Positions 1,410-52,782 of a stretch of 64,000 nucleotides of DNA are shown piece after piece (within the stretch, counting starts at the first letter, position 1; every line of letters starts with the position of its first letter). This DNA comes from Cylicocyclus nassatus. Its lineage: Eukaryota > Nematoda > Chromadorea > Rhabditida > Strongylidae. The stretch is from contig CATQJL010000316.1 of assembly GCA_958299035.1 (NCBI GenBank), positions 42,892,025 through 42,956,024 of the forward strand. Direction: 5' to 3'. The notes beneath the pieces are model-generated. The model had not been told where the DNA came from. It did no database searches and was given only the letters and a program-made list of their open reading frames with translations. The position numbers and the translations under genes are program-made.

Positions 1410-1439
1410 GTTGCGGATGACCGCTCGTTTTGTTGCTGC

Positions 1440-1939
1440 NNNNNNNNNNNNNNNNNNNNNNNNNNNNNNNNNNNNNNNNNNNNNNNNNNNNNNNNNNNNN
1501 NNNNNNNNNNNNNNNNNNNNNNNNNNNNNNNNNNNNNNNNNNNNNNNNNNNNNNNNNNNNNNNNNNNNNNNNNNNNNNNNNNNNNNNNNNNNNNNNNNNN
1601 NNNNNNNNNNNNNNNNNNNNNNNNNNNNNNNNNNNNNNNNNNNNNNNNNNNNNNNNNNNNNNNNNNNNNNNNNNNNNNNNNNNNNNNNNNNNNNNNNNNN
1701 NNNNNNNNNNNNNNNNNNNNNNNNNNNNNNNNNNNNNNNNNNNNNNNNNNNNNNNNNNNNNNNNNNNNNNNNNNNNNNNNNNNNNNNNNNNNNNNNNNNN
1801 NNNNNNNNNNNNNNNNNNNNNNNNNNNNNNNNNNNNNNNNNNNNNNNNNNNNNNNNNNNNNNNNNNNNNNNNNNNNNNNNNNNNNNNNNNNNNNNNNNNN
1901 NNNNNNNNNNNNNNNNNNNNNNNNNNNNNNNNNNNNNNN
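1440..1939. other. Assembly gap, exactly 500 N
   Basis: Five hundred unspecified bases, a conventional placeholder length. Open frames crossing it are meaningless. It cuts the Penelope-like element on its upstream side. Confidence 0.99.
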
Positions 1940-1964
1940 AAGCAGTGGTATCAACGCAGAGTAC
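1940..1964 (+). other. SMART cDNA-synthesis primer sequence (artefact)
   Basis: The 25 bases directly after the gap match the commercial SMART/PCR primer IIA, which begins AAGCAGTGGTATCAACGC and ends AGAGTAC. This is library adaptor, not genome. It suggests that a read from amplified cDNA or amplified DNA was assembled or used for scaffolding here, so the junction between the two sides of the gap should not be trusted. Confidence 0.93.
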
Positions 1965-8938: not shown

Positions 8939-9364
8939 TTGCGAGCCTGCGGAGAATGCGCCTCAGTGACTTCTGAGAAGAACTTGGACCGCATCTCGAA
9001 GACCACCAAGGAATTGCTCGAAAGAAGAAGATCATTGAGGCAGGATCCGAATGCAACTCATCTCGAGCGACTGATAGCCAACACCAGTTGCAGAACAGCT
9101 TTGCAAGAGGATCTCAGGAAGTACAGGCAAGCCAAGATACTGGAAGCAGCCGAAAGAAGACGAAGTCTCAAGAAGTGCCGAAGGGACCTCTGCGAATATC
9201 ACGTACCGCTGGCTGCACTGCTGAACGAAGACGGGACTTCGACTTCTTTTCGATACAAGATGGATCGCGAAGAACTTCTACACCAACCTCTTCCGCTCAT
9301 CAACACCCGTGCAGATGCCCGTTGTTCCCACTGGAGAAGTACCACCACGAATTCTACCTGCTGA
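8939..9364 (+). pseudogene. RTE linker between endonuclease and reverse transcriptase
   Basis: A highly charged helical segment (ERRRSLRQDP, LEAAERRRSLKKCRRDL) sits where RTE proteins link endonuclease and reverse transcriptase. It is offset in frame from both neighbours, so at least two indels separate the pieces. Confidence 0.6.
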
Positions 9365-10438
9365 AGTGCGTATCGCGATACAGACCATGAAGACGTCCAC
9401 TGCTCCAGGACCAGATCATCTTTCCGTCGAACTTCTGCGAGCCGGAGGACACCGTCCACACGAGATTCTAGCGTCGCATTTGACATCTTACCTTCAGAAG
9501 GAGAAGATTCCCGACCAGTGGAGAACGTCAAGAACCGTCCTTCTCTTCAAGAAGGGTGAACGGGAGGATCTTCGGAACTATCGTCCAATATGCTTGCTGA
9601 GTGTGCTGTACAAGCTTTTCACGAAAATTATCCTCGCTCGCATATCAAGGACACTGGATGAAGCCCAACCCCAAGAACAAGCTGGATTTCGCAAAGGATT
9701 CAGCTGCATGGACCACATCCAGACCGTTTCGAGGGTCATAGAAGTCTGCCGGGAGTACCGACTGCCTCTCGTCCCAACCTTCGTCGACTACGAGAAAGCC
9801 TTCGACAGCGTCGAAACCAACGCCATCCTGTCAGCGCTAGTCGATCAAGGAGTGGACCCAGCCTACGTGAGGACACTAGCCAACTGCTACAAGGACTGTA
9901 CAACAACGATACAGCTGTTCCATCGCCCCCTGACCATACCAATCGGGAAGGGGGTCCGACAAGGCGACACAGTCTCGCCGAAGCTGTTCACCGCGGCCTT
10001 GCAGTGGGTGATGAAGTCACTGGACTGGGACGAGAGAGGCATACGAGTTGATGGGAGATTCCTGTCCAACCTTCGTTTTGCGGACGACATCGTTCTCTTC
10101 TCGAGCACTATCACCGAAGCAGAGACGATGCTGAAGGAACTAAACGAAGTAGGGAAGAAGATTGGACTGCGAATAAATCAGAAGAAGACTCAGTTCACGA
10201 AGAACGCCCTTTGCGAAGATGCAGAAGTGGAATTGGAAGGCACCCCAATTATGGAGACGTCTTCCTACGTGTATCTCGGACGTTCGATGAACATGGAGAA
10301 CAACTTGAGGGAAGAACTTAACAGGAGAAGAAGAGCAGCCTGGGCCGCCTTCGGGCCTCTGAAGGAAGCCACCGACCAACTGACGGACCCGGAGCTTCGT
10401 GCCCACCTGTTCGACTCAACCGTTCTCCCGGCGCTCTG
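9309..10438 (+). pseudogene. RTE reverse transcriptase, N-terminal and catalytic part
   Basis: This frame carries the usual non-LTR blocks in order: STAPGPDHLSVELL, YRPICLLSVLYKLFTKI, QAGFRKGFSCMDHI, motif A FVDYEKAFDSV, motif B GVRQGDTVSPKLF and the catalytic FADDIVLFS. The thumb region follows (INQKKTQF, YVYLGRSM). The frame is cut at ...VLPALC by the Harbinger element. Removing the insert and one TTA copy rejoins it in frame with 16061. The catalytic Asp pair is present, so the domain itself looks intact. Confidence 0.9.
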
Positions 10439-10441
10439 TTA

Positions 10442-10756
10442 GGGATCGGCCATACTAATCCTGATGATTCCTGCGACACCTGCGATTCCTGCGACTCCCT
10501 GTGATTCCCCACAGTTCTATGATGCCCGCACAGTTTAGGCGCCGCTTAAACGAGCGCATTCTGCGTTTGTCATTTGGTGCCGCGTAAGGCAAAATCGAAT
10601 GATTCAGTATTTTGCTGTGAACGTTTTTTTTCTAATTGTAGGCATATTCACACCTCGTAATCAATATGAAGATGTTTTAGAGGTGTTAACAAACGATACA
10701 CTTGTTTCAGATCTTGCGTTTCACCGAAAACAAGTGTTGCCTTTACTACATTTACA
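10442..10756 (+). repeat. Harbinger left terminal inverted repeat, 315 bp
   Basis: Matches the reverse complement of 15746-16060. A 50-residue open frame translated from each arm is the same in both. It starts GGGATCGGCC next to the TTA duplication and contains a CCTGCGA/CCTGTGA-like short repeat at 10470-10500. Confidence 0.92.
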
Positions 10757-12369: not shown

Positions 12370-13648
12370 ATGAGCTACGAATCATTATCGAATCTTTTGG
12401 GAAGTTTGGAGTTCTTGTACGCTATGAGCGAGCCTACTGCAGGCCAGATATCTCCGCGGCAGAGGCGGCAGTATGTGCGGCAAGAGCACATTCGATTCAT
12501 TGAAACTCGCTTCCGCATTTTTGACGAATACCTGGTTACGAGGAGGCCTGAGGGTTTTCTCGAATTCATCAAGCTCTTGCCTGATGAATTTGAGGACCTC
12601 TACGAAAGAATAGGAAGTGGGTTAGAGCATCCTCGTACTCATCTTGGTCCAGTAACCGGCCGTCACAGACTGATGATCTACCTCAGGTGACTTGGGGAAC
12701 TGATAACGTGAACTAAACCGCTAATAACATGCATTGTCCCTTCAGATTTGTAACGCAGAGGAGGACTTTCACCGCCTATGCTTTGGACATAGGAATGGGG
12801 AAAACAACAGTATCGAATGTGGTAGAGGAAGTGGCAGAAGCCATCATAAGGGGTATAAGCAGAACGCTAGCTATATACATTACCACCAATCGTGATTCAG
12901 TTCTGCATAATGTTGCTTTTCCACCTCTAACACGTGCGAGACTAGAGGAAGTAGCCAGAAAGACACAGGCACGGTTTGACTACCCCAGGGCGGTGGGGTT
13001 CATGGACGGCAAGCACATAAATATCCAGGTTCTCAGTGCTTATGCAAGATGTATACAACGACAGTGTGTGTTTAGAAGCCGGCCCGCTCTGGAAGTATGT
13101 ACTGGAACTACAAACATTACCACTCGATCATTCTCCTGGCAATATGCGATTGTGATTATCGCTTTATGGCGTACGACGTTGGAGCTCCTGGTCGCCGTGG
13201 TGATGCTGGCGTGTTTCGGAATTCCGCCATCAAGGTTTGGTTCGCTAATGAGAAAATACGGAGGTTTGATTCGGGAATTCAGAGATGGCTGGAACGTCAC
13301 GATGACGTTTTTCCTCCCACGAGAGGGCTTGGAAGAGTGGGCCCTGTCCAATATCATTTCCTGGTGGACGGCGGCTTCGCTCAAGGGCCGCGATTTATCC
13401 GACCGTATAGAGAGCCCGAAACGACTACAGGAGATAGAAGGCGATTCAACCGACAATTAAGCGGGTAACTTATCACCTATCCGACATGACGATGTGGAGG
13501 AATAGTATTTAGAGCTCGGCATATGATAGAATCCACCTTTGGTTTGCTGGCCCAGCGTTTCCAAATTTTGATGACGCGGATGACCTTGACTCCAGAGCGA
13601 GCAAAGCGGCTGGTTGTTTCCCTCATGGTTAGCCCAGTTGACTATTGA
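12370..13648 (+). CDS. PIF/Harbinger DDE transposase (HARBI1-like), 4 exons, 374 aa
   Basis: The exon model is 12370-12686, 12746-13028, 13076-13464 and 13513-13648. All introns are 47-59 bp with GT...AG ends, phases agree at each junction, and 375 codons including the TGA result. The N-terminal half is helical with a helix-turn-helix-like region (YALDIGMGKTTVSNVVEEV). Catalytic positions: first Asp in GFMDGKHINI, second Asp in HFLVDGGF, Glu in MIESTFGLLAQRF. Between them are the family blocks MYWNYKHYHSIILLAICD and YDVGAPGRRGDAGVF. The protein would cut and paste the element together with the MADF partner. Exon 2 ends at a weak donor (GTTCTC), so the second intron is the least sure. No stop or indel is seen. 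Confidence 0.85.
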
Positions 13649-15375: not shown

Positions 15376-15411
15376 CCTGCCTGCAAAACAGAACCTTGAG
15401 ATAAGGAATCA

Positions 15412-15752
15412 CTTAAAGTTGTAATGCAAATCACGACATAAAGTTGTAAATGTAGAGAGAGCTAACATCGCGACTCAAAGTTGTAATGCAAATCACGACA
15501 TAAAGTTGTAAATGTAGAGAGAGCTAACATCGCGACTCAAAGTTGTAATGCAAATCACGACATGAAGTTGTAAATGTAGAGAGAGCTAACATCACGACTT
15601 AGAGTTGTAATGCAAATCACGACATGAAGTTGTATGTAGAGAGAGCTAACATCACGACTCAATGTTGTAATGCAAATCACGACATAAAGTTGTAAATGTA
15701 GAGAGAGCAAACATCACGACTCAAATTGTTATGCAAATCACGACGTGTAAAT
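15412..15752. repeat. Subterminal tandem repeat, ~61-bp unit, about 5.5 copies
   Basis: Unit AAAGTTGTAATGCAAATCACG... ending in GAGAGAGCTAACATC... recurs about every 61 bases next to the right TIR, with few changes between copies. Subterminal repeats in this position commonly serve as transposase or MADF-protein binding sites; that role is inferred. The left end lacks a matching array. Confidence 0.85.
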
Positions 15753-31888: not shown

Positions 31889-32546
31889 TGTAATGTGCTT
31901 TGCCAAGTATCACATGCACGGATAGCGGATTTTACGTTTACATAACGAGTAGCAGCGGAGTGACATTGAATACGACGAAAACTAATTATCAAGACAAGAG
32001 AAGAAACCTACAAAAAACCCTCGAAGAAAACTGGACTCGTTGGAAAGCTTGTGTATTTTCAATTAGGCAATGTTAAATTGAATATCGTTTTTATTATACG
32101 TTTTATGTGACCGCGTATGTTTGCATCCATTAGTAGAAACATATATAAAAGACTGTAGGAAGCCTTTAGTGTTGGTTGTGCATTTGTGTATCGAACTTAT
32201 ACTCTTTCTCTCATCCTTACTCGATGTAGTTTTCTAAGCTCTTTCCCAAATTCTTTTAGCCTTGTCTGGTAGTTTCATAGTTAACAATTTCTACTAGTAT
32301 TTATCCGGTATCGGCCATAATGATTCATCGCCGCTGGCCGACGGCTTAGGTACGATCTTCTGTAATTTATCCATATTAGTTAGAGAGGTCACTTGCGTTT
32401 TGTTCGATCACATGGTTTGTCTCCTTGCTAATAAATAGTTGTTGGGAACTGACTTCGTTAAGGCCGGCGAACACCAATCACCTTATGTAAGACATTTTCA
32501 TCAATCTCAGCACTAGCTGCTCTGCGGAACCATGCCGAGCCTTACA
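31889..32546 (+). repeat. Outer element 5' LTR, 658 bp
   Basis: Starts TG and ends CA within the inverted TGTAA/TTACA termini. ATATATAAAAGAC at about 32140 is a likely TATA box and ATAAA at about 32429 a possible poly(A) signal. I see no difference from the 3' copy. Confidence 0.95.
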
Positions 32547-34741: not shown

Positions 34742-37259
34742 TTGCGAGCTACTAAGATCCTTCCTCTAGCCCATGAGGATATCCCAGATACCCACCTTTC
34801 CTCATGCTCTTCAGGATGTCACAATTCAGGACTATGTTTCATGCATGGCTCGTCAAGAAGAATGAAGCGCTTTACACGATATCTTCGGGACAAGAAAGAC
34901 GGCTACTTGCAATCAGACAACTCGGATTCCAGAATTCAATACATGCTCTATATCTTGACGGAAATTTCTCGCTGAAACAGAACGCTGAAACGTCACCAAT
35001 AGCGACCTTAAGAGAGCAACGCGACTGTACAAATTTGAAGACCTATGCCATCTCGCACTACATTCGATATGGTATGGCGAACATCGCATGAAGCAATTAC
35101 ACCTATTTGCGGAAGTTGCGAGAAGGAACCACCGAACTATGCGGTAACCACTACTCATCGGGAGGAATCTGGAATATCTACGATTTCCGATGATTTGGAA
35201 AAGGAATCCGGGAGCTTCGCTACCAATTCACCGGGATCGTCAAAAGTAGATTGGAAGCCTAGAGTCCCTTATTTCAACAGTCCTATTATGATTACTACTA
35301 CTACTACTACTACTACTATTATTGCTACTACTACAAGCCCCTACAACCACAAGTCCGCCTACAACCACTGCTTACTACTACAACCTTGTCTATTACCACA
35401 ACCCCGCCTACAACCATAACTTCGTCCATAACTACAACGAAGCCTACTACTACAACCGCCCCTACAACCACAATTCCATTCATAACCACAATTCCCCCCC
35501 CCCTACAACTACAATACCGCCCACAACCATTATGACATCTACTACTATGATCCCGCCCACAATCACAACGAAATCCTCTACCACAACGCCGTCCACAACT
35601 AAATGAAGCCTACAACCACGACTACGCATACGACCACAATCCCGCCCAGACGACAATGAATCCTGTACCTATAGCAAGGATGCCTACGACTACAACTAAA
35701 ATTCTACCCATAATTTTTACGACGCCCACAACCGAGACCCGACCCGCAGTTACGACGACACCTACAACTACGATTTGGTCCACATCTACACGTTTATCGA
35801 TAACGACATCGATGATGACAACAAAGCCCTCAGCGACTATCTCTAAGACGTTAAGCAGCCCGAGCCCCACGCCTTCTACGGAAGGAACTTCTCTTACTAT
35901 ACCGACTATATTCACTACGACTACGGTACGGCCCCAACTATCCGAAAAGATATTGGAAGAACATCAAACTTTTCCGTCACCGTTCACTATTGCAACTACT
36001 ACTACTTCCTTCATCACGCCACCAACAGAACCTGAAGTATACTATCATACACCCATGCGCATCCTACAGCCGATAATACCACCTAAAATTCCAACATCAA
36101 TCCCTCAACTAGAAATCTTGATGAGGGCAACAAACTACGTCTCTATGGATTGGACTGCATCAGTAGTGGATTCAGTACTATCGACTGTATCAGTAGTAGG
36201 TTCAATACTGTCATCAAGGGTACCTACTGCGACGATGATCATGCCAGCTACGATGACGAAGGAAGAAAACGCTTCAGTAACACGAGAAGCTACAACCTTC
36301 TCTACAACATTTACAACTGCTTCCGTGTCTATACAACCATTCGATACGGAAATATCTTCACGAAATTTTGCGGTGCGACGTCAGTTCAACAACATTTGTG
36401 TCCGACAATTCTTGGGAGCACAACGCATACGCGCTTTGAGCTCCGTTGATCCAACATGGGCTGTAAGAATTCTACTAGGAAGAACCGACATCACGGCCGC
36501 TCGGACTGCTGAAAATTTGCTGATTACGAAATGTCGTCAAGTAACGCCTACATTCGTCTACGAAAATCATACGGTTGATGCAACATGCTATATGCTGAAA
36601 CCGGTCAAAGTCAACAGTGAACTTTGGTTTCACGTACCGGGAACGCAAGATCTGATACGGACATCGAGTACTATCCCCTGCCCTTATCCATTACCAAAAC
36701 GCCCTAACATGACGCAGAAGTTGGTACTACCGAGTAGTGTTATCAACGATCACGCGAAGCCTTTCCTCTTCGAAGCCCCGCCTACCTTCTATCGATTGCT
36801 CGACAGTTACGCCCCATCAATCATCCCACAGATGGAAGCGATAAGACAAGAACAAATGGAGATGGCCCTGCGACTTCAGAAAAGAGGAATCATAGACGAA
36901 GCAGTTTCGCGCATACGAAACACCAGCGCGTCTTTGGGTCAGTCTTTAATATCTCTTTATGAAAAAACGACACAGAAGCTTTCGGCTGGAGTAGAAGATA
37001 TCAAATGGTCTGTTTTATACACTGTACTCTGGATTGCAGTACCCGCCGTCATTATCCTGCTCTGTGTCGCCGCGTGCGTGATCTATGTGAAGCTCTTCTT
37101 TATCAGGCGTGCAACATCAACGGCCGCTTCAGCCATGTTCGACATCGCCAGGAATTTCGTCCCAAAGGGAAGAAGTCGAAGACATCCACGTGCGATAAAC
37201 ATGCTGATGACAGATATGTCACAAAACGTAGTTGAGGAAGAGCCACTTTTCGTGCCAAG
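34742..37259 (+). pseudogene. Envelope-like glycoprotein of the outer element, N-terminus broken, C-terminus open
   Basis: The N-terminal half is in fragments: RRMKRFTRYLRDK with the furin-type site, and TTHREESGIS. From 35656 a frame is open to the insertion. It holds a Thr/Pro-rich stalk, a Cys-containing ectodomain (RQFNNICVRQFLGAQRIR, N-glycosylation sites NHT and NMT), a dibasic site in LQKRGIIDEA, a coiled-coil-like stretch and a transmembrane helix near 37010-37090 (LWIAVPAVIILLCVAACVIYV), then a basic cytoplasmic tail. It is cut at ...LFVP by the inner element. The frame runs on to 37413 only because it reads into the inner LTR. Confidence 0.8.
35290..35650 (+). repeat. ACT/ACAACC triplet-rich stalk region of the outer env
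   Basis: (ACT)n at about 35293-35335 followed by ACAACC-rich sequence with frame slips. It corresponds to the Thr-rich stalk of the inner element and has drifted in length and frame. Confidence 0.8.
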
Positions 37260-37787
37260 TGTAAGGTTTGGCCTAGTTCTCGTAGGAATCGTAGCGGAAA
37301 TTCAAACTAATTTACCTTTTAGATGTAGATTACTTTGTTCGGCCAACCTTAACAATTTTCCCAACAACTCTTTATTCCTAAAAAGGACAGCCGACACATC
37401 GATCAAAATCTGATTCTAGGAAAGAAAGCCTCTACGGAGAAAGCATGAACATAAGTGCAAAGAAGGGAATACTAAAAGAAAATACACGCACAAAGTGGGG
37501 ATAAGAGAGGAGAGAAGGAGAAAGGCTAAAACTCAGTCATGATCAATCCTCATTCACAGCCAAACCTCAGCTATATATACGCTGTACCTTGATGAGAAAT
37601 TACGATCACATATGTTTTCTAAATACAAGAAATTGCGCTATTTTCCACTTCAGCAGTTGTCCTTCTTTCTTCAATGTGTCCTCTGAAAGGCCGTTATTGT
37701 ACCATAGCCGGTCTTCTGATTAATTGCAGCTCCGCTATCAATTACATGCATCCTTGTTTTCGAGGCTTCTGAAACTCGTTCTCTACA
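37260..37787 (-). repeat. Inner element 3' LTR, 528 bp
   Basis: In plus orientation begins TGTAAGG and ends CTCTACA. Compared with 47810-48337 I count about four single-base differences. Confidence 0.95.
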
Positions 37788-38245
37788 TCCACGGGGTACC
37801 AAAAGGTTGCGTCCCGTAACCTTCATCCTCGCCTTATGACTCCGAAGGTATTATTTCCTCTTCTCATTGTACCGTTCTTTTCAGAAAATCGTCGAAATGT
37901 CGCTATCTCCGAATGTTGACTTCTTCTGCCTGCCAAATGTTGACTTCTTTTGCATAGCTCGTAATTTCTTTGTTTTCGCCGCGCGGCTCATGGACGATGA
38001 TGCATCATTTGGTACGTTTCGATTAAAGTCCACATCTTCTTTTGCATATGCTTAATTATAATATTGTGGTCCTCATCTATAATCACTGAAATATCCTTGC
38101 GGCTCGCGTCTCGAGGCAACTGGAATGGTTGCGCAGGCCGGGTTCCGCGACGCGATTTCTTCTAAAATCATAAATTACCATTTGCCTCCTCAATTGTCCA
38201 ATAACCGCATAAAATTTCGTTGCGCAACCATTTTTTTTATTATAG
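37788..38245. other. Inner element 3' module between LTR and the antisense gene
   Basis: Next to the LTR, GGTTACGGGACGCAACC (minus strand) matches GGTTGCGGGACGCAACC before the outer 3' LTR. The GCGCAACCATTCC...GCGAGCCGC block at 38098-38146 is also shared with 51832-51872. A possible upstream antisense exon (acceptor TTTTCAG before 37889, donor GTACGT near 38012) does not join the EGF frame in phase. Confidence 0.5.
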
Positions 38246-38675
38246 ATGACCGCGGTGGACCGCTCCTTTTGCGTGAACAGCTGTTCTAATCGTGGACTCT
38301 GCATCAAATCGGATCTTGGTTTTACTTGCTTATGCGATGAAGAAGAAGACGAGTGCGAAGGGGTAATACCCGCGTCTACGCTGGTTGTACCCACGTCTAC
38401 GCTATCTATACTGGACATCCGACAAGATTTTTGGATTCTTATAATTACCGGTGGTGAGTCATACCTCTAGCGTTGCTGCAATTACGAAAGTATACTGGCC
38501 TTTTACAGTCACCGTCGTCGTGGGATGTTTTTGCCTGATGATAGGATTAATTGCGTGTCGACGACGTCATCGCCCAAAGATCCCTGAATTGAGGAGTCAC
38601 ATTCCGCTGGAATCACCCGCTCTGGAAGTGCCGTTGCATTTTGAGGAACCCATGGAAGAGATTCCTCTGGATTGA
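38246..38675 (+). CDS. Antisense gene: EGF-like, single-pass membrane protein, 2 exons
   Basis: Exons 38246-38453 and 38509-38675, on the strand opposite to the retroelement. Splicing out a 55-bp intron (GTGAGT...TTTTACAG) keeps the frame and gives about 124 residues. Residues 9-35 form an EGF-like domain with CX3CX5CX8CXCX6C spacing. A Thr/Ser-rich stalk follows. The splice joins FWILIITG to VTVVVGCFCLMIGLIAC, making one continuous transmembrane helix. After it come RRRHR and an acidic, Pro-rich tail ending PMEEIPLD. A splice acceptor (TTATTATAG) lies directly before the ATG. No signal peptide is seen, so an upstream exon may exist. No counterpart is found in the outer element. Function unknown; a captured host receptor/ligand-like gene or an accessory gene are both possible. 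Confidence 0.72.
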
Positions 38676-38816
38676 TTTGCTCTCTTCTCGCATACAGTTT
38701 TTGCTCAAAAGGTGCTCTACTTTCCCTACAATGGCAATGCTATTAATATAATTGGTTAATAAAAATAAATCATCTTTTGACATACAATCAAAACATGATT
38801 AATAGTTGTTGGGAAA

Positions 38817-38868
38817 AATTTTCTTTTTTTTTTCTTTTTTTTTGTCTTTTTTTTCTTTCCCTCTCTCT
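38817..38868 (-). other. Purine-rich tract directly after the integrase stop, inner element
   Basis: On the sense strand about 50 bases are almost pure A and G (GAAGAGAGAGGGAAAGAAA...). The outer element has a similar tract at 51105-51170. The sequence next to the 3' LTR is not purine-rich, so this may be the real or an extra polypurine tract. Confidence 0.5.
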
Positions 38869-40695
38869 TCATGACATGAGTTCCTTGTGCAGTTTTGTGC
38901 GGTCGACGTGGATAGTTCTTTCACGTTTGCCATCTCGAATTGTGATGTTGGGAAGATTGATGTCGATAATGGGGAATGGTCCTTCAAAACGCGCTGCAAG
39001 TTTATGGACACCGTCTCTTCTTATCCAAACTTTTTCCCCAATGTGATACTCGGCTTTGGGGGTCCTTGCTCTTAGATCGTAATGACGTTTCTGCTGATCC
39101 TGTGCTTTTACAAGATTTGAATAGACATGTTGATACGTATCCTTCAAGATTTGGGTAAGATGGTTTACATAGTCCTCTGTATCTGCAAACTTCTTTGTTG
39201 GTAGCTGGAGAGCCAGTTGAAAAATATCGATAGGATTATGGCCGTGAATGAGAAAAAAGGGTGAATATTTGGTTGAAGCGCTTTCCGCACAGTTGCAGGC
39301 GTGTACTACAAAATGAAGGACGTAGTCCCATTCATCATTATGTTGACGAGTAGCGATGGCGATTTGTTCCTCTAATGTGCGATTGGTTCGTTCGACTTGT
39401 CCATTCGATTGGTGATGATATGGGGTGCTTGTACAATGATTAACGTGTAAATTTCGTAGAAGTGTACGAAACGTTTCGCTCATAAAGTTAGATCCTTGGT
39501 CCGTTACTAGTGCTTCTGGTAGTCCAAATCTGGCCACAAAGCGCGTGGTAAAAATACGTGACGTAGTATCGGCCTTTTGATCAGGTATCGGTTCCGCGAC
39601 TATGTACTTGGAGAACGAATCGATGAAAACAATAATGTACTTGTTTCCCTCCATAGTGAGCGGCAAAGGGCCAATTACATCGGAGTGTACCCGTTGCCAT
39701 GGTTTTGTAGGTAACTCGAATGGACGCAGCGGCTCTCTTATTCTGTAAGCACTTGGGTCCTTCCTTGCTTGACATGAGTGACAGGAGTTAACAAAATTTG
39801 CAATATCCTTGCGCATGTGATTCCATATGGCAATTTTCTCGACAACGGCTTGGGTTTTACTAATCCCTAAATGTGCTGCCGCTAGTTGAGATTGATGGGC
39901 CATAGCGACGATATCGTTTTTGATCTGGGATGTTTCTGGTAGTATCACTTGAGGGTCCTGGTCTAGACGATTGGGCACTCTATAAAGAATGTCGTTTATG
40001 AGAATATAATTGCTTAACATCGCAGAGTTTTCATTATTCGCTAAGGCGGTCTTGATCCTTGCGATCCATACACACTCGTCTTGTTCCTTACGTACTGTAT
40101 CCATTTGAAGGTTATCGCTTGTGATGTATGTGATAGCATTCGCAGCGGGAGGTAGGTGTCGAGACAGTGCATCGCATACTGCATTCTTCTTTCCCGGGCG
40201 GTAAACGATGTCAATGTCAAATTCCTGCAACACAATCTGATATTTTGCTAATCTTCCCGTAAGATCTTTCCGGTGGAGAAGTGCCTTCAAAGGTGCATGG
40301 TCAGTGATGACCGTACACTTGGCTCCATCTATGTACGGGCGAAACTTCTGAACTGCGTAGACCAGGCCTAATGCTTCAAGTTCTATTGCCGGATATCTTG
40401 CTTCATGCTTGTTCAGGGTGCGGCTCGCATAGGCGATGACACGTTGTAATCCATCCTGTTCCTGCTTAAGAATACCGGCTACTCCTTTCGCTGAACTATC
40501 GGTTTCAATGGTAAAAGGTTTACCTAACCGTGGTGCTGCAAGGATAGGTGCCGTTGTCAGCGCTTTTTTCAGGTATTTCATGGCTTCTTCGCATTGAGAT
40601 GTCCAATCGAAAGGTGTATTCTTCTTCGTCAGTGCGGTAAGGGGGGCGGCTATAGTAGCGAAATTATGGATGAATCTCCGGAAAAATGAGCACAT
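38869..40695 (-). CDS. RNase H and integrase of the inner element
   Basis: A 608-codon frame. RNase H: ETDSSAKGVAG, AIELEALGLVYAVQ, TDHAPLKALL and VCDALSRH. Integrase: zinc-binding HLGISKTQ...CHSCQ, then the catalytic triad in HSDVIGPLP, TDQGSNFMSE and GQVERTNRTLEEQ, and a GPF/Y-type module (FEGPFPII) near the end. All catalytic residues are present. It belongs to the same polyprotein as the frame ending at 40803, from which it is separated by a net -1 shift; the stretch 40696-40802 between them is coding in the downstream frame. The enzyme would process and insert the cDNA with a 4-bp duplication, as observed. Confidence 0.9.
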   Translation of the reverse strand: MCSFFRRFIHNFATIAAPLTALTKKNTPFDWTSQCEEAMKYLKKALTTAPILAAPRLGKPFTIETDSSAKGVAGILKQEQDGLQRVIAYASRTLNKHEARYPAIELEALGLVYAVQKFRPYIDGAKCTVITDHAPLKALLHRKDLTGRLAKYQIVLQEFDIDIVYRPGKKNAVCDALSRHLPPAANAITYITSDNLQMDTVRKEQDECVWIARIKTALANNENSAMLSNYILINDILYRVPNRLDQDPQVILPETSQIKNDIVAMAHQSQLAAAHLGISKTQAVVEKIAIWNHMRKDIANFVNSCHSCQARKDPSAYRIREPLRPFELPTKPWQRVHSDVIGPLPLTMEGNKYIIVFIDSFSKYIVAEPIPDQKADTTSRIFTTRFVARFGLPEALVTDQGSNFMSETFRTLLRNLHVNHCTSTPYHHQSNGQVERTNRTLEEQIAIATRQHNDEWDYVLHFVVHACNCAESASTKYSPFFLIHGHNPIDIFQLALQLPTKKFADTEDYVNHLTQILKDTYQHVYSNLVKAQDQQKRHYDLRARTPKAEYHIGEKVWIRRDGVHKLAARFEGPFPIIDINLPNITIRDGKRERTIHVDRTKLHKELMS

Positions 40696-40802
40696 TCCTA
40701 AGAATGACTTGACTTCCGTTGCGTTTGTTGGTTGAGGGTATTGATCGATCGCCTTTGTTTTCTCGGGGTTGGGTCTTATACCTTCTTTACTCAGGATGAA
40801 TC

Positions 40803-43800
40803 CTAGAAAATTTCTTCCTTTGCAAATTCACATTTTGACGCCTTCAGCTTCATTCCTATGATTTCTATCTTCCCTAAGACTTCGTCAATATCTTCCAAGT
40901 GTTCTTGTGGGCTAGCTGACGTGATGATAAGGTCATCAATGTATATGAAGACTCTTGCTCTCAGATACTTTTTGAAGTCATCCATTATCCTTTGGAACGT
41001 AGCAGGGGCTCCTTTCAGTCCCATAGGCATGCGGATATATTCGAAGGCTCCGAGAAAACATGCAAATGCCGTTCTTTCACAGTGTTCCTCTTCCAACGGA
41101 ATTTGATGGAAACCTTGTTGAAAGTCAAGAGAGGAGTAGAGACACTGATTAGCGCAAAGGTCAATGATGTCCTGGATATTCGGAAGGATCGATTGCTGTG
41201 GTTTCGTGATGGCGTTGAGCCCACGGAAGTCAATTGTAAAACGCCAAGCATTTGCTTCGCGTTTCTTCACTAACACAATAGGTGCACAGAATGGCGAATT
41301 TGATTCCCTAATGATTCCGTCCTTCAGCATTTGTGTTATTTGCTTCTCAATTTCCTGTCGCTTCTCTAGAGGTACCCTGTAGATCTTCCTAGCTGGTATC
41401 GCCGCGTTTTCGATGAGATCGATCCGATGACGTATATTCCCTTTATAATGTCCAAGGTGTCCGTCTGGTCCCACGAAAGCGTTAGCATGATATCTAATAA
41501 TATTTCGTAATTGGTTTTTCTGAGGTTCCGTTAAGTTGGAGCGTGATAGGTCGATTTCTTCGGCGATGTCATAATCTTGAGACGTTAGGACTGGAAATCT
41601 GGGCAGACGAGTTTCCCAGTCTGCCTCCGGTGGGACGCGGAAATCGTTGTTACCATCTGCTGAGTAGTCATTGATATATGTGACTGAGGGGCAGAAAACA
41701 TCTTCCGAAGGCACGGCTTGTGGAACTTGTAGTTGCTGCACCCATACTTCCGACGCACAAGCGGGATATGCCAGTGCTATTCTGAGCTTCTCAGGGAGTG
41801 TAACATGAGACATAGATGGGTTGAGGATGTTAATATAGCAAGTTCCATCCAAATTCGGGGTAACAAGGGTTCGACCGACAATGAAGATTTCGTTCATCGG
41901 CCTGAGATTGTCTTCAATGAGAAAATCTCTACATCTCGGCCAGGTAAGTCCTTCAATACGCGCTTCCACCATGTTGTTAGTTCTTCTAGGTAACGATACT
42001 TTGTTGGTAAGTCCTACATCGTATGATGGTATTATTGCTAGTGTGATGTAATTGACTGAAACCAAATCTATCGTCTCAGGTCCTATCCGTATCGTTTTGT
42101 GGTATAGATCGAATGAAACTAAAAGACCATCTTCGTTTAACGCTCGAATAAAGTCGGATCCTAATAGGAGCGGAACGGGGCAATCTTTCTCTGCCGCTAC
42201 GTGGAAATTATGATATATTACATGCGTTCCAATCTGTACTGGAAGGCGGATTGATCCCACGAGTTGTATTGTCGTGCCGTTCGCCGTTGTTGCCAATTTT
42301 GGGTCTCCCTCAAGTGGTCTTCTATCTTGAATCAGCGAGAGAGTTGACATCCTCATGTATGAAATGGTTGCTCCGCTATCGAGCAAAGCTGTAACACTAC
42401 TATCTCCAACCCTGACTTCCAGATATGGTAGATATTGCGTTGTTCCTACGCCAACTGCGTAGATCCTTGGCACGAAAAGTGGCTCTTCCTCAACTACGTT
42501 TTGTGACATATCTGTCATCAGCATGTTTATCGCACGTGGATGTCTTCGACTTCTTCCCTTTGGGACGAAATTCCTGGCGATGTCGAACATGGCTGAAGCG
42601 GCCGTTGATGTTGCACGCCTGATAAAGAAGAGCTTCACATAGATCACGCAGGCAGCGACACAGAGCAGGATAATGACGGCGGGTACTGCAATCCAGAGTA
42701 AAGTGTATAGAACGGACCATTTGATATCTTCTACTCCAGCCGAAAGCTTCTGTGTCGTTTTTTCATAAAGAGATATTAAAGACTGACCCAAAGACGCGCT
42801 GGTGTTGCGTAGGCGCGAAACTGCTTCGTCTATGATTCCTCTTTTCTGAAGTCGCGGGGCCATCTCCATTTGTTCTTGTCTTATCGCTTCCATCTGTGGA
42901 ATGATGGATGGGGCATAACTGTCGAGCAATCGATAGAAGGTAGGCGGGGCTTCGAAGAGGAAAGGCTTCGCGTGATCGTTGATAACACTATTCGGTAGTA
43001 CCAACTTCTGCGTCATGTTAGGGCGTTTTGGTAATGGATAAGGGCAGGGGATAGTACTCGATGTCCGTATCAGATCTTGCGTTCCCGGTACGTGAAACCA
43101 AAGTTCACTGTTGACTTTGACCGGTTTCAGCATATAGCATGTTGCATCAACCGTATGATTTTCGTAGACGAATGTAGGCGTTACTTGACGACATTTCGTA
43201 ATCAGCAAATTTTCAGCAGTCCGAACGGCCGTGATGTCAGTTCTTCCTAGTAAAATTCTGACAGCCCATGTTGGATCGACGGAGCTCAAGACGCGTATGC
43301 GTTGTGCTCCCAAGAATTGTCGGACACAGATGTTGTTGAACTGACGTCGCACCGCAAAATTTCGTGGAGATATAATTTCCGTATCAAGTGGTTGTATAGA
43401 CGCGGAGGCAGTTGTAGGTGTTGTAGAGAAGATTGTAGCTTCTCGTGTTGCTGAAGCGTTTTCTTCCTTCCTCATCGTAACTGGCATGATCATCGTCGTA
43501 GTAGGTATCATTGATGACAATACAGAATCTACTACTGATACAGTCGATAATACTGAGTCCACCACTGATATAGTCCAATCCGTGGAGACGAATCTTGTTG
43601 TCCTCATCAAGATTTCTGGTTGAGGAGTTGACGTTGGAATCTTAGGTGCTATTATCGGCTGTAGCATGCGCATAGGTGTATGATAGTATACTTCAGGTTC
43701 TGTTGGTGGCGTGATGAAGGAGGTAGTAGTAGTTGCAATAGTGAACGGTGACGGAGAAGTTTGATGTTCTTCCAATATCTTTTCGGATAGTTGGGGCCGT

Positions 43801-46800
43801 ACCGTAGTCGTAGTGAATATAGTCGGTATAGTAAGAGAAGTTCCTTCTGTAGAAGGCGTGGAGCTCGAACTGCTTGACAAATTGGATGTAATCGCTGACG
43901 GCTTTGTTATCGTTATCGGTGCCGTTATCGGTAAACGTGTAGATGTGGACCAAATCATGGTTGTAGGTGTCGTCGTAACTGCGGGTCGGGTCTCGGTTGT
44001 GGGCGTCGCAAAGACTATGGGCAGGGTTCTAGTTGTAGTCGTAGACATCGTTGTTGTGGGTACAGGATTCACTGTCGTCTTGGGCGAGGTTGTGGTCATA
44101 TGTGGAGTCGTGGTTGTGGGCAGGGTTGTAGTTGTGGGCAAGGTTGTGGTTGTAGGCAGGGTTGTGGTTGTAGGCAAGGTTGTGGTTGTGGGCAAAGTTG
44201 TAGTTGTGGGCAAGGTTGTGGTTGTGGGCAGGGTTGTAGTAGATAGGGTTGTGGTAGACGACTTTGTTGTGGTTGTGGGGGAAGTTGCAGTGGTGGTAGT
44301 AGTAGTAGTTGTAGTAGTAGTGGTGGTAGTAGTAGTCGTAGTAGTAGTGGTAGTAGTAGTAGAACTGTTGAAATAAGGGATTCTGGATTTCCAGTCCACA
44401 TTTGACGATCCCGGTAAGTTGATCGCGAACCTCCCAAATTCCTTTTCCAAATAATCATCAAACATCATAGATATTCCAGATTCCAAATCCCGACGGATGT
44501 TGATTACCGCATAATTCGGTGGTTCATTCTTCGCACTTTTCGCAAATAGATGTAGTTGCTTCATGCGGTATTCGCCATATCGTATCGTGCGTAGTACAAG
44601 ATGACGTGGATCTTCAAATTTGTATAGTCGGGCTGCTCTCTTGAAATCACTGTTGGTGATATTCCAGCGTTTTATTTCAGCGAGGATCTTCCACCAAGTT
44701 ATAGGGCGTGTATTGAATTCTGGAATTCTGCTCAATTGTTTGACTGCGAATAGCCTTTTAATCAAAGACACAGATTCCATCGGTACCATTTCAAAGGGAA
44801 AAGTATTGCCATCTTTGTCTCGAAGATATCGTATAGCTCGCTTCATTCTTCTCTGATGAGTCATACGTAGAATATAGTCCTGGATTGTAACGTTTCGGGG
44901 GACGTAAGGAAAAATAATGATGTGATTTGATGTCGTAAGGTAGCTGGTGTCGAGTTGGCAGTGCTTGGTAAGTTGCTGGTGTAGCAAAGAGTCCTCAGAA
45001 AATCGAAAAACAAGATCCGGGTGAGGCAGGACTATATAGTCGCGAGTGACAAAAGCTTCAAAAACTCCTACATGTTCGTATCTGCATGCCGGAGTGGTTT
45101 CCGCTGGCTCCCAGACAATAGTATATTCTTGGGTGAGACAAGATCCTTGTGTATAGAGACAATCCTGGGTATCTCCTAGCGAATTGATAATATGATATCC
45201 ATCGAAAGTAGCAAGTTGTCCTTCTTCTATTGTATATATGCTACGAAGGTAGTTTCTTGTTCCCCATAAAGGTATTACTATATCGTCGTCCTCGATTTCT
45301 CTCGTGCTTCGGAGTCCATCAGCTTGCAGAATAAGCTCATGGTCGTGTATCTTGCCTGTCTCTTTTGCTTTTACACACAGCTCTTGGGGAATCGATACAC
45401 GTCGACGTCGCAATATAGTCGTTGTTGTCCGGATGCGAAGAAAACTGCTGATGGATACCTCGATAGCATCTCTGTAGCACTTAGTTGCGTTGTACCAAGT
45501 AGGATTGGAATTGTCCGCAAATAGTTGTACCGTGGTTCGCATCATAGGAGTATTGATCGGAGATGTACAATCAAATGCTTCTGGAAGTGAAAACACATTT
45601 GAATATGGATTCACGCCACATATCTGATATTCCGCCGTTACGTAGCCGCAGAACATGACCAATGTCATCACACAGAGTAGGTGTGTTCCCGGGGTGTAAA
45701 CATTCGTGCTTCTAGCAAAATTGCTCGGTGGTTGTTGAAATGTTGCGTCCCTGGGTACCGATAGATTCTGTGGATGGTTTGGGCATGTCTCACAATTGCA
45801 AGTCTTCATCATCTGTTGTGGTATATTCGCTCTACCGTGAAATGCCATACGGTTCGTATATGTCAGTGGGCGTTGGCGTCGGAAAAAACGTCTAGGATTA
45901 AATTTCCTTTGGTTGAAAAATGGTCTTGGAGGTGGTCGCATCATTCTCTGTCCTTGTTTGTTGCTATTCTGATTGATCGTAGGCTTCTTTTGCGATGTCG
46001 TTCCCATCTGGCTCAATTGTTCTTCAAGTTTATTGATCTTTTCATCCATTAGAAGAGCATTGACTGCCTGGAGAGCATCTCTATCTTCCTTCCTTTCCTG
46101 TTGCAGAATTCGATGTTCCTTTTCTGCCCTACATACTATCTCTTCGAATTCATCAGTCTCGGGAAGTCTTCTAATCGCTTTTCTGACTTCGGGATTAAGT
46201 CCTTTTATGAAGAAATCGATGGCCATTCTCTTGACTAGGGATTCTCCTTGTCCTTGGAAAGCGACTTTCGTTTTGTTGTAGACCTTCTTCGCAAACTCTC
46301 CTATAGTGTCTTTCCCTTGAGTGATGTTGTGCAGCTCGTCGCGAATATTACTGAGAAGTGACGCATTCTTCATTCGTGTTGCTAATTCCGTAACCAGTTC
46401 CTTCCAGGGCATTGTATCATGATTCGGGATCTGTTGGTATTTGAGCTTCGCTCCTCCCATCAGGTATGCTGGCAGCAGTCTTTTTGCGATCGGGTGGGGA
46501 ATCGCGAGTTGGTGTATCAGCTCCTTGTACTCGTCTAGAAATTCTTCAAACGTCTTATCTTCCGAGCCGGAAAACTTGTCCAGTCTATTGCCCAGCATCT
46601 TGAACGCTCTGTATAATTGCTCCTGGAATTCCTCATTAGTGAGTGATGGTGGCGGTTGATTAGGGCGAGTTGGTGCTGACTGATTCGAACGAGTTGGTGC
46701 AGAATGATTAGAACTTTCCTCGTCAGACATGGTAGCTTTGCGACGATTAGAGGCGATGATTTTCTCTCTCTGCTGTGCTCTGCGTTGGCGTCGCAGTAAT

Positions 46801-46833
46801 CGTTCCGTGATGACGGGTGCCGTTGCGTCCGTC
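40803..46833 (-). CDS. Gag - envelope-like glycoprotein - protease - reverse transcriptase polyprotein of the inner element
   Basis: One frame of about 2,000 codons. The real start is probably the ATG at 46730, after a splice acceptor (ATTTTTAG) ending at 46834. Gag (to about 45720) has capsid-like helices and an Arg-rich tail but no zinc knuckle. The envelope-like part follows without a stop: hydrophobic signal-like LLCVMTLVMFCGYVTAEY near 45700-45650, many Cys and N-glycosylation sites, furin-type RMKR near 44845, Thr-rich stalk 43700-44375, dibasic site in LQKRGI, transmembrane helix 42715-42630. Then aspartic protease (LLDSGATISYM near 42390) and reverse transcriptase (RFTIDFRGLNAIT, LDFQQGFHQIPL, catalytic YIDDLIIT near 40950). 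A 4-base shortfall relative to the outer copy ends the frame at 40803. Having env between gag and protease is the striking feature. Confidence 0.88.
43700..44375 (-). repeat. Mucin-like Thr/Pro stalk with 18-bp minisatellite
   Basis: The sense strand has (ACT)n-type Thr runs at 44285-44370 and about seven copies of an 18-bp unit encoding PTTTTL at 44100-44260. Such regions are expected to be heavily O-glycosylated and extended. The same region of the outer copy differs in length. Confidence 0.85.
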
Positions 46834-47437
46834 CTAAAAATAAGTTTATTAAAAACAATTACAAACATACAATACAAATAAATGAGACCACCACCAATAC
46901 CACAATATTATTGCTAATTAGTACACAGAAGAGTTAGTTTCATAGTTAAGTAAAAATATGAGATATAGAAGTTGCAAGTTATACGGCAAACTGGGGAAGA
47001 AATTTTCTTTTTCCTTTCTTTTTTTTCCCGCAGCCACACGTGTTCTCAATAGATCGCAAAACTTAAGACAGGGCGCATGTTCTTCAAAAAAAAATCAGTT
47101 TGTACCAGAGGACGCGGTTTCCCAACCATTTAGGTCCCTTCTTGGGGACTGTCTACACGGGGCAGGCGACTGTCTGCGCGGAGTAGGAGGACGAGGATGG
47201 CGGAATGAATGAAGAATTGTTCTAGGCAGCTGCCCGAAAATAAGCCATATCTGCTCTACGTGAAGCACAAGTGGAGTATCAACATTAAATGAAAAATCCA
47301 GTAGAGGAGTGTGAGGAGATTCAAGAGCATAATCATGTCTATAAAGCAAATGTTTTTGCAATGTGTGCGGCTGGCGGCTCGTCCTAGGGCAGGAGGAACA
47401 AGGAAAATGATAGTTCTTCGCATTTTTAGAATGGATG
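46834..47437 (-). other. Probable first intron of the inner element
   Basis: Lies between the 5' ORF and gag and ends with the acceptor at 46834. The 5' splice site is not certain. No conserved protein on either strand; the outer element carries the zinc-knuckle ORF in the corresponding place. Confidence 0.45.
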
Positions 47438-47737
47438 TTAAAGTAAGCATGGCCAGGGATAAATTGTCCACAACAAAGGAAGAATCATGCTGCAATGACG
47501 GGTAATGTCGTGATCCCTTATGTGGATCAGCGGACGATGGCACGCATCTTCAAGCAGGGTAGCCAAACGGTAGGTAAACACATAAGATCTCAGTGCGTGC
47601 ATATCCGGTGGTGGCAACGCCATGACTCGTTCTTGCTCTCTTTTCCACTCGCTAGTTGGCTGGTGGGGGACTACAGGGGTTTCGTCACGAACACTCGTAA
47701 GAATCTCAAGCAATTGCTGAATGGCCTCGTCGGACAT
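47438..47737 (-). CDS. Small 5' ORF of the inner element, up to 99 aa
   Basis: Starts 73 bases after the LTR: MSDEAIQQLLEILTSVRDET, then EWKREQERVMALPPPDMHAL. The first ~70 residues are conserved in the broken outer copy, which implies coding function; the end is less sure because a splice to gag may leave this frame. It could be a separate small protein or the true N-terminus of Gag. No known domain. Confidence 0.6.
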   Translation of the reverse strand: MSDEAIQQLLEILTSVRDETPVVPHQPTSEWKREQERVMALPPPDMHALRSYVFTYRLATLLEDACHRPLIHIRDHDITRHCSMILPLLWTIYPWPCLL

Positions 47738-47796
47738 TTCCTGAAAGTTCTAATTCTAAAATAAAATACTACTACGTAACGCTAGCTTTGTTCGAT

Positions 47797-47809
47797 GCCG
47801 GAACCTCCA
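47797..47809 (-). promoter_or_regulatory. Primer-binding site of the inner element
   Basis: Sense-strand TGGAGGTTCCGGC directly after the 5' LTR, identical to the outer element's site. Confidence 0.8.
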
Positions 47810-48337
47810 TGTAAGGTTTGGCCTAGTTCTCGTAGGAATCGTAGCGGAAATTCAAACTAATTTACCTTTTAGATGTAGATTACTTTGTTCGGCCAACCTT
47901 AACAATTTTCCCAACAACTCTTTATTCCTAAAAAGGACAGCCGACACATCGATCAAAATCTGATTCTAGGAAAGAAAGCCTCTAGGGAGAAAGCATGAAC
48001 ATAAGTGCAAAGAAGGGAATACTAAAAGAAAATACACGCACAAAGTGGGGATAAGAGAGGAGAGAAGGAGAAAGGCTAAAACTCAGTCATGATCAATCCT
48101 CATTCACAGCCAAACCTCAGCTATATATACACTGTACCTTGATGAGAAATTACGATCACATATGTTTTCTAAGTACAAGAAATTGCGCTATTTTCCACTT
48201 CAGTAGTTGTCCTTCTTTCTTCAATGTGTCCTCTGAAAGGCCGTTATTGTACCATAGCCGGTCTTCTGATTAATTGCAGCTCCGCTATCAATTACATGCA
48301 TCCTTGTTTTCGAGGCTTCTGAAACTCGTTCTCTACA
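47810..48337 (-). repeat. Inner element 5' LTR, 528 bp
   Basis: About 99% identical to 37260-37787. A TATATATA motif at about 48120-48130 could be the TATA box. Confidence 0.95.
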
Positions 48338-48340
48338 CAA

Positions 48341-49947
48341 GGATCTACGCAGTTGGCGTAGGAACAACGCAATATCTACCATATCTGGAAGTCAGGGTTG
48401 GAGATAGTAGTGTTACAGCTTTGCTCGATAGCGGAGCAACCATTTCATACATGAGGATGTCAACTCTCTCGCTGATTCAAGATAGAAGACCACTTGAGGG
48501 AGACCCAAAATTGGCAACAACGGCGAATGGCACGGCAATACAATTCATGAGGTCAATCCGTCTTCCAGTACAGATTGGAACACATATAATATATCATAAC
48601 TTCCATGTAGCGGCAGAGAAAGATTGCCCTGTTCCATTCCTATTAGGATCCGACTTCACCCGAGCGTCAAACGAAGATGGTCTTTTAGTTTCATTCGATC
48701 TATACCACAAAACGATACGCATAGGACGGGAGACGATAGATTTGGTTTCAGTCAATTACATCACACTAGCAATAATACCATCATACGATGTACGACTTAC
48801 CAACAAAGTATCGTTACCTAGACGAACTAACAACATGGTGGAAGCGCGTATTGAAGGACTTACCTGGCCGAGATGTAGAGATTTTCTCATTGAAGACAAC
48901 CTCAGGCCGATGAACGAAATCTTCATTGTCGGTCGAACCCTTGTTACCCCGAATTTGGATGGAACTTGCTATATCAACATCCTCAACCCATCCATGTCTC
49001 ATGTTACACTCCCTGAGAAGCTCAAAATAGCACTGGCATATCCTGCTTGTGCGTCGGAAGTATGGGTGCAGCAGTTACAAGTTCCACAAGCCGGGCCTTC
49101 GGAAGATGTTTTCTGCCCCTCAGTCACATATATCAATGACTACTCAGCAGATGGTAACAACGATTTCCGCGTCCCACCGGAGGCAGACTGGAAAACTCGT
49201 TCGTCCAGATTTCCAGTCCTACCGTCTCAAGATTATGACTCCGCCGAAGAAATCGACCTATCACAATCCAGCTTAATGGAACATCAGAAAAACCAATTAC
49301 GAAATATCATTAGATATCACTTTAACGCTTTCGTTGGACTAGACGAACACCTTGGACATTACAGAGGGAATATACGTCATTGGATCGATCTCATTGAAAA
49401 CGCAACGATACCAGCTAGGAAGATCTACAGGGTACCTCTAGAGAAGCGACAGGAAATTGAGAAGCAAATAACACAAATGCTAAAGGACGGAATCATTAGG
49501 AAAGTAACTTCTCCGTTCTGTGCACCTATCGTGTTAGTGAAGAAACGCGAAGCAAATGCCTGGCGCTTTACAATCAACTTCCGTGGACTCAACGCCATCA
49601 CGAAACCACAGCAATCGATCCTTTCGAATATCCAGGACATCATTGATCTTTGCGCTAATCAGTGCCCCTACTCCCCTCTTGACTTTCAACAAGGTTTTCA
49701 TCAAATTCCATTGGAAGAGGAACACTGTGAAAGAACGGCATTTGCGTGTTTTCTCGGAGCCTTCGAATATATCCGCATGCCTATGGGACTGAAAGGAGCC
49801 CCTGCTACTTTCCAAAGGATAATGGATGACTTCAAAAAGTACCCAAGAGCAAGAGTCTTCATATATATTGATGACCTTATCATCACGTCAGTTAGCCCAC
49901 AAGAACACTTGGAAGATATTGACGAAGTCTTAGGCAAGATAGAATGA
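48341..49947 (+). pseudogene. Protease and reverse transcriptase of the outer element
   Basis: Open frame after the inner insertion, in frame at GATCTACGC with the protease. Aspartic protease active site LLDSGATISYM, then the same reverse transcriptase blocks as the inner copy with substitutions (RFTINFRGLNAIT, where the motif Asp is Asn) and the catalytic YIDDLIIT near 49860. The frame ends at 49947 by a shift at the end of the domain. The ATG at 48274 lies in the inner LTR and is not the real start. Confidence 0.85.
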
Positions 49948-52124: not shown

Positions 52125-52782
52125 TGTAATGTGCTTTGCCAAGTATCACATGCACGGATAGCGGATTTTACGTTTACATAACGAGTAGCAGCGGAGTGAC
52201 ATTGAATACGACGAAAACTAATTATCAAGACAAGAGAAGAAACCTACAAAAAACCCTCGAAGAAAACTGGACTCGTTGGAAAGCTTGTGTATTTTCAATT
52301 AGGCAATGTTAAATTGAATATCGTTTTTATTATACGTTTTATGTGACCGCGTATGTTTGCATCCATTAGTAGAAACATATATAAAAGACTGTAGGAAGCC
52401 TTTAGTGTTGGTTGTGCATTTGTGTATCGAACTTATACTCTTTCTCTCATCCTTACTCGATGTAGTTTTCTAAGCTCTTTCCCAAATTCTTTTAGCCTTG
52501 TCTGGTAGTTTCATAGTTAACAATTTCTACTAGTATTTATCCGGTATCGGCCATAATGATTCATCGCCGCTGGCCGACGGCTTAGGTACGATCTTCTGTA
52601 ATTTATCCATATTAGTTAGAGAGGTCACTTGCGTTTTGTTCGATCACATGGTTTGTCTCCTTGCTAATAAATAGTTGTTGGGAACTGACTTCGTTAAGGC
52701 CGGCGAACACCAATCACCTTATGTAAGACATTTTCATCAATCTCAGCACTAGCTGCTCTGCGGAACCATGCCGAGCCTTACA
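52125..52782 (+). repeat. Outer element 3' LTR, 658 bp
   Basis: Same length as and, by eye, no difference from 31889-32546. Followed by the CTAG duplication. Confidence 0.95.

Follow-up and report, generated by a model that had tools for sequence, protein, structure and literature searches.

In errantiviruses, as in the Tas element of Ascaris, env is located after pol. The same position behind pol is found, where an order is stated in the available text, in retroviruses, in Atlas virus (PMC9094657) and in the TelKA elements of bdelloid rotifers (PMC5408684). We describe here a retroelement family of strongylid nematodes in which an envelope-type glycoprotein is encoded between Gag and the protease, in a single reading frame. 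The element studied lies in a 64,000-nucleotide stretch of the assembly GCA_958299035.1 of Cylicocyclus nassatus, a cyathostomin of horses (contig CATQJL010000316.1, positions 42,892,025 to 42,956,024 of the forward strand), which is hereafter called the window and which contains two nested long terminal repeat (LTR) elements, an inner one on the minus strand and an outer one on the plus strand. An earlier reading of the letters of the window, hereafter the original prediction, had proposed such a glycoprotein in the inner element, and this proposal is borne out by the stop-free frame, by its recurrence throughout the family and in other strongylids, by purifying selection and by a match to the Pfam family PF24664 (Monjiviricetes_fusion).

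The closest described systems each share part of these features. Atlas virus (Belpaoviridae), from Ancylostoma ceylanicum, is also a retroelement of a nematode; it has captured the fusion protein of an RNA virus and has recent copies and a single polyprotein frame (Gag-Pol-Env, 2,828 residues, with neither stops nor introns), but its env comes last and encodes a class II, phlebovirus-type Gc at the C-terminus, and the element is of the Bel/Pao and not of the Ty3/Gypsy type (PMC9094657). Tas is likewise a nematode element, whose class III env weakly resembles herpesvirus gB, but it is placed among the belpaoviruses in the reverse transcriptase (RT) tree of the same source (PMC9094657). Anakin carries a captured Monjiviricetes glycoprotein of the chuvirus type, but belongs to the Pao superfamily and to mosquitoes (PMC7642597; PMC10084718), and the available part of the latter paper reports no clear capture by Gypsy elements. 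TelKA is retrovirus-like and has a mononegavirus-derived fusion protein, but this protein is of the paramyxovirus F type and is encoded by a separate open reading frame (ORF3) downstream of pol (PMC5408684). Errantiviruses and insect endogenous retroviruses (iERVs) such as ZAM are Metaviridae whose Env has a signal peptide, a furin site and a transmembrane (TM) segment, but their env is of the baculovirus F type and is expressed from a spliced RNA (PMC12992720). Finally, Cer1 is a nematode Gypsy/Ty3 element without a stop between gag and pol, but it has a spliced CERV protein (PMC10309623; PMC3315495). Cer1 was rejected as a precedent because the portions of these papers that were available mention no envelope between Gag and protease, and Troyka because it has no envelope. 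In the open-licence papers covered, no report of an env between gag and protease was found, a negative that does not prove absence. Nematode elements that combine a single frame with a captured fusogen are already known, as are mononegavirus-type captures, but none of the available text on these systems puts env before the protease.

The inner element contains a single stop-free frame of 2,034 codons (40803-46907, minus strand), in which Pfam searches and hydropathy place, in this order, Gag, a signal-like segment, a cysteine-rich ectodomain with an RMKR site, a Thr-rich stalk, a second ectodomain part, a QKRG site, a TM helix, a basic tail, a protease with the motif LLDSGAT and RT (Table 1). 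The ectodomain, RMKR site, stalk, second basic site, TM helix and basic tail had all been listed in the original prediction and are recovered. The C-terminal tail of Gag is basic, and no CCHC knuckle was seen in the window Gag by eye; a further hydrophobic stretch stands at the very start of the frame (codons 1-24). As RNase H and integrase lie in another frame, the window copy is broken inside RT. Its Thr-rich linker is expanded by an 18-bp tandem repeat at 44110-44237; elsewhere the linker measures 239 residues (copy L044) or 308 residues (copy L032).

The gag-env-pol order is a trait of the family, beyond what chance would give. When the genome (514,686,895 bases) was searched with the N-terminal half (N-half) of env, 87 matches of 35-100% identity were obtained among the best 86 of 860 first-look candidates, which were scored. 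In 20 of the 87, there is no stop inside the match, which is contained within an open frame of 2,434-2,687 codons, long enough for all domains through integrase; some of these copies are near-identical pairs, and they do not therefore represent 20 independent events. Merged env loci were then compared with merged protease (PR)-RT loci, on the same strand and within 9 kb. PR-RT is downstream of env in 62 of the 79 scored env loci, 17 remaining unpaired, which upholds the view that the order does not result from a single rearrangement; env downstream of pol, which would have been expected in most copies if the layout were exceptional and which characterises errantiviruses, was observed at none of the 62 paired loci. 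An env match is absent from the vicinity of 18 of the 80 PR-RT loci, the outer element of the window being among those 18.

Twenty copies, picked mostly for their long open frames, were fetched with 5 kb around each env. The entire fetched piece is open in 16, and the Gag capsid motif, signal, second basic site, TM and protease are within one frame in 18, the exceptions being L034, without the C-terminal half (C-half) of env, and L035, out of frame after the TM. Among these fetched copies alone, Gag is found upstream of Env, as an R[RK]LP motif, in 19 of 20. Copy L034 has lost both the env C-half and the protease, its 1,407-codon frame in the fetched piece consisting of Gag, the env N-half and then RNase H-integrase.

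The same order is encountered in related worms, where the original prediction had advised looking for further copies. Gene models of Ancylostoma duodenale and A. ceylanicum, which are predictions, join Gag and Env (P0006, P0008 and P0010) or Gag, Env and Pol (P0014, a model that skips the linker). In Cylicostephanus goldi, the 1,613 amino acids of P0009 (Gag end, Env, PR and RT) fill a 4,842-base contig and are therefore encoded without an intron. Among public records of C. nassatus itself, P0013 and P0016 carry PF24664. In these two gene models, a similar stretch is present at the C-terminal end, behind the protease or pol part, and that of P0013 is zinc-knuckle-like and Cys-rich; the family may possess a 3' accessory ORF.

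Judged from profile and model matches, the middle protein is of the viral fusion-glycoprotein type. In the profile search against glycoprotein families that had been proposed, PF24664 is matched by every one of the 12 C-half members with an E-value of 1 or less (best 2.8e-8); the window copy alone scores about 20.4-21.5 bits, below the curated cut-off of 27. The predicted structure of the N-half points the same way, as the AlphaFold2 model, although of modest quality, resembles herpesvirus gB, which occupies all of PDB rows 1-19, and most of the named viral Foldseek matches with E no higher than 0.001 are glycoproteins from rhabdo-like viruses or a nyavirus. The whole-env model has a mean pLDDT of 44.5, and its Foldseek matches comprise two viral glycoproteins with E no higher than 0.001, besides fragments of the chuvirus type with E of 0.008-0.26; weight was put on the N-half model. 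The layout is also class III-like, with a signal in 19 and a single TM near the C-terminus in 19 of the 20 fetched copies. The captured glycoprotein is probably of class III and of the Monjiviricetes kind. A BDV_G match (2 of 18 N-half members, best E 0.038) was not relied on. No cytosolic family, which would have been the contrary outcome, gave a good Pfam match to the N- or C-half. In sequence searches against solved structures, none was found for the C-half, and the whole env gave only two chance ribosomal rows (E 0.62 and 0.94); none of seven pattern matches in IMG/VR is a relative, and a whole-env profile search gave two matches, probably being swamped by low-complexity words. These results indicate that env can be captured elsewhere than at the 3' end, since a diverged family retains the order gag-env-pol with a glycoprotein that seems to be of the kind found in negative-strand RNA viruses, and they add a Gypsy-type case to the captures of fusogens by nematode elements.

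The anatomy of the middle protein is conserved. Its N-half has eight cysteines in 19 of 21 copies and nine in the other two; the first basic site conforms to R-x-[KR]-R in 18 of these 21 copies, the remaining three (L039, L040 and L044) having K-x-K-R, and the KRG of the second is present in 20/20 copies keeping the region, which L034 lacks. The TM is present in 19 of the 20 fetched copies and in the window copy. Exactly two hydrophobic segments, the signal and the TM, are seen in 15 of 20; L035, L036, L047 and L048 have one extra stretch (1.61-2.15) and L034 has none. The tail that links the TM to the protease contains two motifs, PRIY and LPY, that do not vary among 12 sequences.

Env is under purifying selection. 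The ratios of nonsynonymous to synonymous divergence (dN/dS) were estimated from pairs of copies, seven of eight pairs being usable and many cells undefined, and they are rough since dS ranges from 0.6 to 2.8. The env N-half gives 0.05-0.07 and the C-half 0.11-0.15 (2 pairs each), the TM 0.04-0.19 and the tail 0.10-0.18 (3 pairs each), and the signal 0.06-0.39, with 0.11-0.38 for the stretch preceding it; the values for the gag tail and for protease and onward are 0.08 and 0.03-0.11. Constraint is weaker in the linker (0.22-0.31, 3 pairs). Co-divergence was assessed on 11 representative copies, after dropping eight near-identical ones and two without the motifs: env distances track those of PR (r=0.96) and of gag (r=0.90; p=0.0001). 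Together with selection, this co-divergence fits a single capture of env before the split of the strongylid Gag-Env-Pol family, env having been retained since then.

By its domain content, the family is assigned to the Ty3/Gypsy-type (Metaviridae) retroelements of strongylid nematodes. The inner element has the Pfam set Retrotrans_gag, gag-asp_proteas, RVT_1, RT_RNaseH, Integrase_H2C2 and rve, in the Ty3/Gypsy order PR-RT-RNase H-integrase (the last two in another frame of the window copy), and the general features of LTR elements, namely LTRs, a short target-site duplication (TSD) and a primer-binding site (PBS) beside the 5' LTR. Bel/Pao elements have their own protease and gag-region Pfam families; none of these was found at E up to 1 in the inner element, which has gypsy-type families instead, this absence alone being weak. 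No Pfam match to a baculovirus F-type Env was obtained in searches with the window frame, N-half or C-half, an absence that is equally weak.

How such a frame could be expressed is suggested by flaviviruses, whose polyprotein comprises a cytosolic capsid, an internal signal, a luminal glycoprotein, a TM and cytosolic enzymes. The most likely mechanism, to which we lean with some confidence, is that Gag-Env-Pol would be a membrane-threaded polyprotein of flavivirus-like topology; the two are alike in their working only and no kinship is claimed, flaviviruses being positive-strand RNA viruses. As the frame is open through both junctions, the unspliced RNA encodes Gag-Env-Pol, and it would be translated into a single chain. 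Gag would be synthesised in the cytosol, after which the internal signal segment would dock the ribosome at the endoplasmic reticulum (ER) and the ectodomain would enter the lumen. The TM helix would then halt transfer, and the tail, protease, RT, RNase H and integrase would again be synthesised on the cytosolic side. Cleavage by signal peptidase would release Gag bearing a membrane anchor, furin-like enzymes would cleave Env, and the element's protease, directly behind the TM, would release Pol. This topology would answer, without splicing or an internal start, the question raised in the original prediction of how Gag and enzymes stay cytosolic while the middle enters the secretory path. The median net charge per 60 residues falls from +5 to 0 across the signal (n=21) and rises from +1 to +6 across the TM (n=20), a pattern with which the topology would work without further tricks. 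The fuller proposition, to which we give an even chance, is that capsid, entry glycoprotein and enzymes are parts of a single chain that crosses the ER membrane twice, each Pol being borne on an Env tail and each Gag being born membrane-anchored, a flavivirus-like strategy that would have been reached independently and without a subgenomic env RNA. Such a layout offers splicing-free expression of Env and predicts that the packaging of Env and Pol is coupled.

Several observations weigh against the membrane-threaded polyprotein. The signal segment, which had also been listed among the parts, lies in the window copy under the hydropathy cut-off of 1.6 used in the signal/TM scan, and passes it in 19 of the 20 other copies. 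The charge contrast is reversed at the signal in L047 and L048, and at the TM in L046, L049 and L050. Lastly, acceptor-like patterns occur between TM and protease, the two commonest positions being shared by 7 of 19 copies each, with none in L031.

This last observation favours the main rival, in which Env would come from a spliced subgenomic RNA joining the leader or early gag to env, as in insect errantiviruses, while Gag-Pol would be translated from an RNA that has lost env, the open frame being incidental. The available text of PMC12992720 reports spliced env for iERVs of Drosophila, one subclade of which splices it from within gag, and in C. elegans the single stop-free gag-pol frame of Cer1 nevertheless contains splice sites used for the cerv mRNA, according to the accessible portions of PMC10309623 and PMC3315495; nematode gene models of the Gag-Env-Pol family, which are predictions, are moreover cut differently. 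However, in scans made with consensus patterns only, at positions not adjusted for indels, no start or splice signal common to all copies was detected: any acceptor-like pattern ahead of the signal is missing from 6 of 21 copies, and any in-frame Met in the 120 codons preceding YQICG from 5 of 21; at the end of gag, no donor position is common to more than 3 of 19 copies, and 5 of 19 have no donor there. Splicing needs no open frame across both junctions, yet 20 of the 87 matches lie in frames of at least 2,434 codons. Of the two routes that had originally been put forward, splicing or an internal start, neither is thus backed by a shared signal; splicing remains a rival, to which we accord a limited chance.

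Another possibility, which appears unlikely, is that the middle protein no longer serves entry and is now a membrane anchor, bringing Gag and Pol to the membrane for particle assembly inside the worm. The layout would indeed bind Gag and Pol to the same membrane, and the linker is little constrained, but hardly any copy has lost the cysteines or either of the basic cleavage sites, and the ectodomain ratios (0.05-0.15), where they can be estimated, come near those of protease and onward, which exceeds what an anchor needs. Finally, a rearranged copy or an assembly error, which the nested position and broken RT frame of the window copy could have suggested, is ruled out by the repetition of the order at 62 loci and in Ancylostoma and Cylicostephanus proteins.

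Table 1. Positions of the features of the inner and outer elements in the window.
Feature	Position	Strand	Remarks
Gag capsid region	46191..46472	-	Retrotrans_gag PF03732, 2.1e-6
Internal signal-like hydrophobic segment	45633..45686	-	possible cleavage VTA/EYQ
Ectodomain N-half	44433..45632	-	8 cysteines, 3 N-glycosylation sequons
Furin-like site RMKR	44838..44849	-	R-x-[KR]-R or K-x-K-R across copies
Thr-rich linker/stalk	43368..44432	-	partly 18-bp tandem repeat
C-half stretch matching Monjiviricetes_fusion PF24664	43002..43301	-	profile 347-441; 1.4e-4
Second basic site RLQKRG	42837..42854	-	KRG invariant where region kept
Transmembrane helix	42639..42710	-	hydropathy 2.94
Basic cytoplasmic tail (predicted)	42399..42638	-	joins TM to protease without a stop
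Aspartic protease, LLDSGATI	42144..42398	-	PF13975, 8.9e-7
Reverse transcriptase start	40812..41270	-	RVT_1, 9.3e-27; frame breaks at 40803-40827
RNase H and integrase, in a different frame	38869..40827	-	Pfam domains of broken copy
Inner element 5' LTR	47810..48337	-	528 bp; 524/528 identical to 3' LTR; TSD CAAG at 48338-48341
Inner element 3' LTR	37260..37787	-	TSD CAAG at 37256-37259
PBS-like TGGAGGTTCCGGC, adjoining inner 5' LTR	47797..47809	-	13 bases; read from sequence
Outer element 5' LTR	31889..32546	+	658 bp; identical to 52125-52782; TSD CTAG
Outer element 3' LTR	52125..52782	+	658 bp; no mismatch to 5' LTR
Outer element: single frame with linker, env C-half, TM and tail	35551..37259	+	ends at ...EEEPLFVP, where the inner element inserted

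The inner element spans 37260-48337 on the minus strand, its 528-bp LTRs differing by 4 mismatches and being flanked by the 4-bp TSD CAAG. It splits the outer element exactly where the protease of the latter should begin, and the outer PR-RT picks up at 48338. The outer element had been said to have the same order: this holds for its env C-half up to the insertion and for the PR-RT beyond it, but not for gag and the env N-half, neither of which is open. It has the identical 13-base PBS-like TGGAGGTTCCGGC. With its identical LTRs and its closed gag and env N-half, it looks like a defective copy recently mobilised by others.

Elsewhere in the window, three ORFs were recognised by eye: one at 687-1979 (minus strand) whose end is GIY-YIG-like, resembling that of Penelope-like elements, and which has a long masked stretch, one at 9225-10442 (plus strand) resembling a non-LTR retrotransposon reverse transcriptase, and one at 12717-13460 (plus strand) resembling a Harbinger-type transposase. 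A 62-bp unit is repeated in tandem at 15411-15744, in 5.4 copies.
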